DNA from: Deltaproteobacteria bacterium
GTDB taxonomy: Bacteria > Desulfobacterota > Desulfobacteria > Desulfobacterales > Desulfosarcinaceae
Direction of reading: 5' to 3'
Length of the DNA stretch: 49,949 nt
Assembly (NCBI GenBank): GCA_021824175.1
Contig: JAKALP010000037.1
Location: forward strand, 1-49,949
The notes below the pieces were generated by a model. It saw nothing but the letters and a program-made list of their open reading frames with translations, had not been told where the DNA came from and ran no database searches. A program made the position numbers and the translations under genes. The stretch's first letter is position 1. Every line of letters begins with the position of its first letter. This document shows positions 13,595-49,949 of the stretch, in pieces.

Positions 13595-14512
13595 ATGAAA
13601 ATCGCCGAATTGGAAAAGATATCAGGCGTTCCGCGCTCCACGATCCACCATTATGTGAATTTCGGCCTGTTGCACCGCCCGGCCAAATCGGGCCAGACCA
13701 TGGCCGAGTATGATCAGAAGCACCTCCAGCGGCTGGAAGCCATCCAGAGGATCAAGCTGGACTATTTGAAAAGCGCCAAAACCTCCCGCATTCCCCTGGA
13801 TCACATCAAGTACAAGCTCAGCGAAAGCTACTCCCTGGTCAAGCCCGCCGCCGAAGCCAAGCCTCGCCCGGAAAGCAACGGCCGCAAAGGGTCGAAGAAG
13901 AAAGAAGAGATCATCGAGGCCACCTTGAAGATCTACGCCCACCGGGGCTACTACCTGACCAATATCCGGGAAATTACCCAGGCGGTGGGCATCTCTTCGC
14001 CCACCTTCTACCGCTATTTCAAGGACAAAAGAGAACTCTTCGTCGAAACCATCGAGTATGTGGTCAAGAATTTCAAAAAGGAGATTCGGGCGGCGGTGAA
14101 AAATGAAAAAGACCCCAGCCGCCGCTCCAAGATCATGTTTGAGATCTTCTACAGCCACTACTCCAAGATCGGCGAAATTCTCAACCAGCTGCGCTCCGGC
14201 GTCATCATCGGCGATCCCTGGGCCAAAGAGCGGCTCTCCCGCCTGTATGGCGAAATGATGGAGAACTTGATCAAGGAGATTCAGGGGGCCATCAAAAACG
14301 GCATCATCCGGCCGGTCAACCCCGTGCTGCTGGCCTACTTCAATCTGGCCATCAATGAGGCCGCCATGCACCTGAGCTCCATGGACAGTTCTTTTACCAT
14401 CCACGACGCCATGTATTTTGTAGGCGATATGCTCAACAATGCCTTTTTGACGGAAGAGGGCAAAAAGAACTTCAATATCTTCTACAAGTTCCGGGAACCT
14501 GAAACAAAATAG
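13595..14512 (+). CDS. MerR-TetR fusion transcriptional regulator
   Basis: 305 residues with two different DNA-binding domains. Residues 1-75 are a MerR-type winged helix (MKIAELEKISGVPRSTIHHY then VNFGLLHRP and a Leu/Lys helix). A charged linker (~82-103) precedes a TetR N-terminal domain (EIIEATLKIYAHRGYY, then NIREITQAVGISSPTFYRYF, ~104-150) and a helical ligand-binding/dimerisation domain to residue 305. TetR proteins usually repress until a ligand binds; MerR domains usually bend promoter DNA. The gene is divergent from the nitronate monooxygenase operon, the classic place for its regulator. No strong ribosome-binding site is visible before the ATG at 13595. Confidence 0.9.
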   Translation: MKIAELEKISGVPRSTIHHYVNFGLLHRPAKSGQTMAEYDQKHLQRLEAIQRIKLDYLKSAKTSRIPLDHIKYKLSESYSLVKPAAEAKPRPESNGRKGSKKKEEIIEATLKIYAHRGYYLTNIREITQAVGISSPTFYRYFKDKRELFVETIEYVVKNFKKEIRAAVKNEKDPSRRSKIMFEIFYSHYSKIGEILNQLRSGVIIGDPWAKERLSRLYGEMMENLIKEIQGAIKNGIIRPVNPVLLAYFNLAINEAAMHLSSMDSSFTIHDAMYFVGDMLNNAFLTEEGKKNFNIFYKFREPETK

Positions 14513-14549
14513 TGCTTGGTCGAAAACCCCTTATAAACGGCCCCTCAAA

Positions 14550-23507: not shown

Positions 23508-23654
23508 TAGAAGTGGTTTTAAAACCCCTTTTCAGGTTTAAGGCCGCGGCGGGCCGAAAGGTTCAACCGCAGGAATACATGGAGTATTTTGAGGATTGAA
23601 CCTTTCGGCCCAACAAAGGATTTGAGCCTGAAAAGGGGTTTTAATCCACTTCTA
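23508..23654. repeat. nested palindromic element, complete copy (element A)
   Basis: The outer arms, ~28 bases (23508-23536 against 23627-23654), match with one bulge. The inner arms are a perfect 16 bp (23551-23566 GGGCCGAAAGGTTCAA against 23596-23611). The 29-base core between them reads CCGCAG-GAATAC-ATGGA-GTATTT-TGAGGA and can fold a third small stem (AATAC/GTATT). The same core with entirely different inner arms is present at the window end (49851-49949), and half-copies occur at 45752 and 48715. The element ends 30 bases before the start codon at 23685. Confidence 0.88.
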
Positions 23655-49713: not shown

Positions 49714-49850
49714 TAATTGCCCTCTGTGCTCTTGTGGTTATGAATAGACCGGCCAGCGATATGTTACTGAACTATGCCATAGAGCGCTTAGCCCCATCGG
49801 TAGCCGCGGGCCGTGCTCCTTTTCGTAAGTATGCTACAAGCCATCTCAAA

Positions 49851-49949
49851 ATAAGGGTTTTGGGCCAAAATCGCGACGGAGGCAAATTTTAAACCGCAGA
49901 CATACTGAAGTATTTCGAGGATTTAAAATTTGCCTCCAACAAAGAGTTT
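49851..49949. repeat. nested palindromic element, copy cut by the window end (element B)
   Basis: Perfect 16-base inner arms GGAGGCAAATTTTAAA (49878-49893) against 49922-49937. The 28-base core CCGCAGACATACTGAAGTAT then TTCGAGGA matches the core of element A, while the arms are unrelated to A's arms. AACAAAG follows the right arm in both copies. The right outer arm would lie beyond the window. Confidence 0.85.

Follow-up and report, generated by a model that had tools for sequence, protein, structure and literature searches.

What keeps the small palindromes of bacteria in existence: the mobilisation of their ends, or something that one of their strands does when folded? Two palindromic elements, here called A and B, make this long-standing question testable. 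They lie in a stretch of DNA of 49,949 nucleotides (the window), and a preliminary description of this stretch had drawn attention to them.

Element A, an entire palindromic element of 147 bp with the ends TAGAAG...CTTCTA, occupies positions 23508..23654 of the plus strand; a covariance-model match (E 3.0e-22) covers 23532-23631. It begins with a left outer arm (23508..23538, plus strand, centroid fold), the end of which, TAGAAGTGGTTTTAAAA, resembles IS5-family ends. The left inner arm GGGCCGAAAGGTTCAA (23551..23566) and the right inner arm TTGAACCTTTCGGCCC (23596..23611), both on the plus strand and both defined by the fold, enclose the conserved core CCGCAGGAATACATGGAGTATTTTGAGGA (23567..23595, plus strand), which agrees with the core pattern at 0 mismatches and with the conserved columns of the alignment. 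The right outer arm follows at 23625..23654 (plus strand, centroid fold). The outer stem amounts to 29 bp in the centroid fold and to 35 bp in the minimum-energy fold. Folded as DNA, the element reaches -51.2 kcal/mol, as compared to a mean of -17.6 for dinucleotide shuffles (z -11.1). The limits of the element, its 16-bp paired inner arms and its outer arms, as listed in the preliminary description, are confirmed by the fold.

Element B (49835..49949, plus strand; covariance-model match with E 2.3e-13 at 49867-49949) lacks its right outer arm, because the contig, C60, stops at 49949 and thus within the element. Its left outer arm begins near 49835, as judged by alignment with its own subfamily. 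The core (49894..49921, plus strand), recognised by a gapped core pattern and by the subfamily alignment, has a loop that is one base shorter. The inner arms of 16 bp, 49878-49893 and 49922-49937, are perfectly paired and unlike those of element A; that the inner arms of the two elements differ wholly and are each perfectly paired had been claimed before, and the folds of both agree. Against dinucleotide shuffles, the fold of element B has a z of -4.9.

Downstream of element A, the chosen ATG of a solute-binding protein gene is found 30 bases past the end of the element; the protein has a probable Tat signal (PF10518 slightly under cut-off), and an ABC ATPase gene comes next. Upstream there are an unnamed ORF of 119 amino acids and a minus-strand gene whose product matches M6 peptidases.

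A and B belong to a large family. With up to 3 mismatches, the core pattern has 50 matches in the 6.07-Mb host genome and 0 in the reversed control; the gapped pattern has 61, its control again 0. From 36 diverse copies a covariance model was built, which gave 110 host-genome matches at E <= 0.01. As 19 of these are the second strand of the same palindromes, 91 places are left (de-duplicated by hand from the match list). Such a search of the host genome and its relatives had been proposed in the preliminary description; a large dispersed family is what it revealed. In the order, too, 113 of 146 sampled genomes have matches (E <= 0.001). The typical copy is a palindrome of ~145 bp (range ~120-150 bp), with outer arms of transposon-like character, followed inwards by short conserved linkers, by the inner arms and by a core of 28-30 nt with the sequence CCGSRGnnATAC-n-GTATTTnGAGGA.

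At least four subfamilies, plus single odd copies, can be delimited in the host genome by reading the alignment: the A-type with TAGAAG ends and the inner arm of element A, the B-type with TACAAGC ends and the inner arm GGAGGCAAATTTTAAA, a TAGTGC-ended one with GGAGGCAAAATTTTAA, and a GAGGT-ended one with GGGGTGAGGTGGCCAA. From the own-genome counts 3 of 73 rows were left out (C32:105081, which is false, and C40:24806 and C47:62460, which did not fit the regular expression). The arm sequences are largely inherited within a subfamily; between subfamilies they are mostly unrelated yet paired. The arms are thus not "freely varying", as had been assumed: the contrast of A and B is one between subfamilies. 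Other copies with the same arm sequences, which the preliminary description had named as a refutation (simple inherited repeats), do exist inside each subfamily, and to this extent the refutation applies; its opposite expectation, arms that differ wholly and nevertheless pair, is right between subfamilies. The window also contains a lone end-like sequence, TAGTGCTTGGTCGAAAACCC, at 14510..14529 (plus strand), which has 1 mismatch to the TAGTGC-class end and may be the remnant of such an element. It lies directly 3' of a stop codon, and a partner end is absent nearby among the matches listed.

For the structure alignment, 36 of 68 dereplicated copies were chosen by eye and aligned without reference to structure. 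RNAalifold deduced 33 pairs from this alignment, 23 of them with two-sided changes. Paired cells amount to 94.7%, in shuffles to 79.2%; the covariation is 0.474, as opposed to 0.181 in shuffles and 0.04-0.14 if the partners are slid, a control that favours the structure, which was derived from the same 36 sequences. In 500 shuffles none of the five observed values was ever attained. These statistics ignore the kinship of the copies. The compensatory base-pair changes typical of structured RNA are therefore present by count and against controls, with kinship left in, and the idea of a constant core with covarying stems, put forward for two elements, extends to 36 diverse ones. A second, model-fitted alignment comprises 131 matches in 99 of 112 loci; the counts do not draw on it. 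Conservation concerns the core and the two linkers, which are of the TCAAGG type on the 5' side and of the CAACGC type on the 3' side; most of the variation is found in the arms. The internal loop of the core (CC-GCA-GG/GA ... GA-GG) may be kink-turn-like in outline.

A DNA cruciform would be expected to yield G.T and A.C mismatches equally. In the 33 pairs of the 36-copy alignment, 130 G.T stand against 16 A.C; if only the arms are considered, without the core and two wobble-rich columns, the ratio is 41 to 16. By position, 20 of the 33 pairs have more G.T, 5 more A.C, and 8 are equal. An unbiased count was obtained from an alignment of 164 elements that penalises G.T and A.C alike. Here the linker region has 89 G.T versus 19 A.C and the outer arms 119 versus 59, while the inner arms show no excess (45 versus 42). 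In the host genome the inner arms have 20 G.T versus 30 A.C, which is partly due to one fixed A.C common to a subfamily; in one class of the own genome, the outermost 14 positions have 12 versus 6. The excess of G.T outside the inner arms suggests the folding of one strand. Probably it is the strand bearing CCGCAG...GAGGAT that folds, be it as RNA or as single-stranded DNA; judged from aligned sequences, the evidence is moderate, since the copies are related and the inner arms are devoid of the G.T excess.

Such findings could also be read as those of a structured RNA, small or cis-regulatory, that the host keeps for regulation and that has been spread by duplication rather than selfishly. This reading can invoke the strong covariation, the preference for U.G at alignment columns 6-97 and 7-96, where no other pair is as frequent (20 and 22 of 36 copies), the excess of G.T over A.C and a core conserved over a phylum. 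We nevertheless consider it distinctly improbable. Some 90 copies without a common gene context or orientation are hard to reconcile with regulation, the matches per genome of the order vary from 0 to at least 28, and the copies bear the marks of transposition, i.e., target duplications and presence or absence at an orthologous site.

Direct repeats of at least 6 bp flank the ends of 23 out of 73 elements with clear ends; 2.0 are expected from re-paired flanks. The TAGTGC-ended copies duplicate TANNTA (e.g., TATTTA, TAACTA, TAAATA), the GAGACC-ended ones ~5 bp (by inspection). Among the direct repeats listed, none as long as 4 bp belongs to copies with TAGAAG or TACAAGC ends, such as A and B, which have at most a TA on either side. 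In a metagenome-assembled genome labelled Sandaracinaceae (Myxococcota; G355), 10 of 12 copies are flanked by a TNA duplication, as compared to 41 of 132 mismatched pairs; this control is as high as it is because the left flanks in G355 all read T-N-A.

One site, that of the copy C42:56639, was compared in detail. The copy is absent from the same gene junction in two congeners, G148 and G126, where the gaps are 220 versus 366 bases and 93 versus 197 bases, respectively; the duplication itself is no longer legible here, so far has the spacer diverged. For element A, a search of 30 relatives (up to 9 candidates per genome) for an empty site found no match to the flanks, with the exception of a 219-base match of 70% identity inside the gene downstream. 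Around element A, it is essentially the element alone that is conserved among these relatives. Nor does a rule of gene context or orientation emerge from 72 own-genome copies, as far as a crude gene finder can tell: 16 lie between convergent genes, 15 between genes of the same orientation, 11 are opposite, 8 divergent, 16 were called inside mostly short ORFs, and 6 have no gene on both sides. The non-autonomous mobile element suggested in the preliminary description is borne out by the target duplications, the empty site and the TNA in G355; the labels "hairpin-mobilised" and "structured RNA", used there as well, are to be read conditionally. Carriage by phages or plasmids was considered and rejected, since viral contigs (two patterns), plasmids (two queries) and phages (one query, distant blastn) gave 0 matches each.

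The enzyme that moves the elements may be sought via their ends. Among the genomes of the order, 30 loci with DDE_Tnp_1 were surveyed, and inverted repeats were found around 22 of them. One type of insertion sequence, present in three genomes, has ends, AGAAGCTGTTTTAAAA, that are identical to those of TAGAAG-class elements at 15-16 of 17 positions. The other inverted repeats flanking transposases score 9-13 (one row 0) against the same 1038 element-end windows. The end of element A deviates from the matching ends at 2 of 16 positions. The insertion sequence with these ends measures 0.9 kb and encodes an IS5-family transposase (NF033580, E 1.5e-68; 2 of 3 proteins tested). Its three copies show, by eye, the target duplications TCA, TTA and TAA. 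As far as sequence can tell, the TAGAAG class fits miniature inverted-repeat transposable elements (MITEs) of the IS5 type. Two genomes that contain this insertion sequence have 0 element matches, and the third does not appear among the matching genomes listed.

DDE_Tnp_1 matches occur in 117 of the 146 genomes of the order, with a single one in the host genome. A general requirement for DDE_Tnp_1 had to be rejected, because some element-rich genomes are devoid of it: G008 (96% complete), G050 (97%) and G048 (86%) have neither a DDE_Tnp_1 nor a Y1_Tnp match, which means that in these genomes other enzymes, or enzymes since lost, must act. One type of transposase is also insufficient, since the target duplications differ by class (TNA, ~5 bp, TANNTA). 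In the own genome, TAGTGC-class ends paired at the distance of an insertion sequence were not seen among the matches listed (ten lone ends inspected). Of 15 inverted end pairs listed as more than 260 bases apart in the collected loci, the five that were inspected contained no transposase-like ORF by eye. An ordinary DDE transposase, acting on the ends, is what the target duplications and the IS5-like ends suggest.

The elements share with REP/BIME-type palindromes that they are palindromic, intergenic and multicopy. REP palindromes are moved by a RAYT (Y1) transposase, and Y1_Tnp matches are indeed as common as 128 of 146 genomes of the order. The assignment to this group is nonetheless very improbable. 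G008, G048, G050, G097 and G106 (the last two only 74-77% complete) each contain at least 28 element matches without any to PF01797 (Y1_Tnp), and a requirement for RAYT was rejected on account of such genomes. The elements have target duplications, which Y1 enzymes of the REP/RAYT group are not known to make. The size of the elements, ~145 bp, finally, contrasts with the 20-40 bp that the abstract of PMC3733652 gives for REP.

The outer arms deserve a closer look. In the host genome, 22 full-length TAGTGC-class copies were compared (a 23rd was out of register and left out). Their outermost 14 positions display 24 two-sided Watson-Crick changes, 22 one-sided ones and 11 two-sided changes that leave the position unpaired; without position 7, the numbers are 16, 21 and 3. 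At positions 15-28, there are 6 two-sided versus 34 one-sided changes, the latter mostly at two positions. At position 7 of the TAGTGC ends, 13 of 22 copies have Watson-Crick pairs, with all four kinds represented, and 6 have a wobble pair. If a transposase were the only reader of this site, there would be no need for a free position to match its partner. Pairing itself seems to matter, unless one arm is copied from the other. It seems that at position 7 pairing rather than sequence is kept, which, like the excess of G.T over A.C, points to a folded single strand.

The second possibility, copying of one arm from the other by hairpin-templated repair or replication instead of stepwise compensation, would account for the frequency of two-sided changes at the outermost 14 positions, so different from that at positions 15-28, and for the copies in G355, where GTCCAGAA...TTCTGGAC alternates with GTCGAAAA...TTTTCGAC around near-identical middles. 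However, one-sided and unpaired changes are as common at the same outermost positions, and a swapping of ends between source copies would look the same. We consider such copying unlikely.

More weight has to be given to the view that these are ordinary MITEs of which the ends alone matter, the middle being inherited from an ancestor and the pairing of the arms being a by-product of palindromic origin. The ends do function like terminal inverted repeats and are accompanied by target duplications, those of one class match the ends of IS5, and the arms are inherited within subfamilies. Still, we consider this view rather improbable: the core is near-invariant, while the adjoining arms diverge completely and yet stay paired, position 7 of the TAGTGC ends keeps its pairing and not its sequence, and G.T exceeds A.C outside the inner arms.

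Likely, therefore, though by no means certainly, A and B are copies of an old MITE-like, non-autonomous family that carries a conserved folded core. The MITE character is seen in the small size without a transposase gene (~145 bp, 121 bp in G355, and thus below 500 bp), in the terminal inverted repeats, in the duplication of the target site, and in the dispersal combined with absence at an orthologous site; as for a partner insertion sequence, the 30 transposase loci of the order gave matching ends for the TAGAAG class only, and only in other genomes, and the own-genome listing of TAGTGC-class ends gave none. In mechanistic terms, the ends of the elements would be the terminal inverted repeats of transposons, at least partly of the IS5 type, and would be acted on in trans, presumably by DDE transposases of that type, which may move the element; the insertion would duplicate a short target. 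The middle, which is composed of the core hairpin, linkers with internal loops and the inner arms, would represent a folded domain conserved to the depth of the phylum, while arm sequences and ends might be exchanged by compensatory change or by swapping of modules. The fold of the CCGCAG...GAGGAT strand, as RNA or single-stranded DNA, may help the element to spread or to persist.

How far does the family reach? In the phylum, 49 of 198 genomes have covariance-model matches at E <= 1e-5, and 5 of these 49 belong to the order. Among 84,980 species genomes, the core pattern detects at least 112 stretches. Most of them bear the label Desulfobacterales, Desulfobacteraceae or Deltaproteobacteria; 15 are assigned no further than to Proteobacteria or Pseudomonadota (mostly one metagenome-assembled genome, MAG), 1 to Ruminococcus and 1 to Sandaracinaceae. 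Outside the phylum the covariance model was run on two genomes: the Sandaracinaceae MAG has 69 matches, the Ruminococcus MAG 1. A 121-bp subfamily with the same core comprises 11 of 12 fetched Sandaracinaceae stretches and L187; the twelfth, L340, is a degenerate relative. The copies L173 (Ruminococcus) and L187 (Sandaracinaceae) are probably real and not chance matches; they were left out of every count on the 185-element set. The family thus apparently extends beyond the Desulfobacterota, into Myxococcota and Bacillota, the assignments being labels of metagenome bins taken from record titles.

One may go a step further and tentatively regard the core as a transferable recognition module, folded as RNA or as single-stranded DNA, through which small parasites of various transposon families are enabled to spread. 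In Desulfobacterota and, apparently, in Myxococcota and Bacillota, one and the same hairpin of ~28 nt would have been combined with ends of the IS5 type and with others; the folded strand would be read by a conserved machinery, protein or RNA, either in the course of mobilisation or for the protection of the element. We regard this proposal as less likely than not.

For the annotation of sulfate reducers, the family is a very abundant repeat. The three fully scored Desulfobacterota genomes have 110 (the host), 118 (Desulfosediminicola flagellatus) and 37 (Desulfospira joergensenii) matches, second-strand matches included. It probably also breaks assemblies of these organisms; element B ends a contig. 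In G072, many elements, their scores identical, lie no more than ~120 bases from the start of a contig. Probably short-read assemblies are interrupted by the repeat, and the copy numbers are likely too low.

At gathering score, neither the window nor any of 16 loci had a match in Rfam 15. The low-threshold matches on element A concern microRNA and lncRNA models only and were dismissed as generic hairpin matches. A coding peptide, as in the palindromic coding repeats of Rickettsia, was rejected likewise: in six frames of 174 central segments of ~90 bases, no frame is open in all copies, the best one in 109 of 174, and the variation of the core by single bases (28, 29, 30) breaks any frame. Searches of open-licence papers yielded no description matching the element family; one for the letters of the core led only to papers that, by their titles, look unrelated.

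Related systems are nevertheless known. ERIC/IRU and Correia/NEMIS of enterobacteria and Neisseria likewise have terminal inverted repeats and target duplication. They live in other hosts, and each of these families is known with one set of ends; the present family, set apart from them by description, combines one core with several unrelated end classes and extends over a phylum. Passages of PMC2229807 and PMC10969869 portray them as repeats of ~100-200 bp whose transcripts fold as long stem-loops. Chunjie of Geobacter uraniireducens, compared by its description in part of PMC10969869, resembles the present family as a MITE with inverted and direct repeats that is mostly intergenic; it measures 178-235 bp. 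The multicopy nucleotide sequences of Geobacter metallireducens form intergenic families, some with a central palindrome, and the one printed in the pertinent part of PMC2700814, GRCGTAGCGCTGCTACGCC, differs from the present core. The Rickettsia palindromic elements, in the sections of PMC10969869 and PMC2229807 that deal with them, are repeats of ~105-150 bp in several families with a conserved peptide frame, which the present elements lack in that none is open in all copies. The IS5-family insertion sequence (NF033580) has ends resembling those of one element class and TNA duplications like the G355 copies; unlike the present elements, it is autonomous, 0.9 kb long and without the core.

MITE-like mobile palindromes, then, are already known; several end classes around one folded, phylum-wide core appear to be new. 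Bacterial MITEs are usually thought to be lineage-specific and their middles to be of no importance. Here the middle is the best-conserved part, common to a phylum and apparently beyond, and it sits between unrelated end classes. It looks like a widespread family of small mobile elements with a folded shape under selection.

Some copies are themselves nested palindromes. A second, smaller hairpin family (TCCCGCCTTAGTTCGGCGGGA / TCCCGCCAAAGTTCGACGGGACAGG) is found inside the linkers or the core of the G000 copies C2:30220, C8:97095, C55:356, C33:85234, C51:58206 and C47:62460; in C55:356 it is apparently a clean insertion of ~25 bases. L229 (G000:C22:82995-83218) is a nest of three levels: TAGTGC-type ends enclose a palindrome ACCATGGAGAGCATGAAG...CTTCATG, which in turn encloses a core-less TACAAGC...GCTTGTA mini-element. 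L230 and L231 (G000:C39:38442 and 67692) are core-less deletion derivatives of the TAGTGC class, ~45 bases in length, in which the left end is fused to the right end within the linker.
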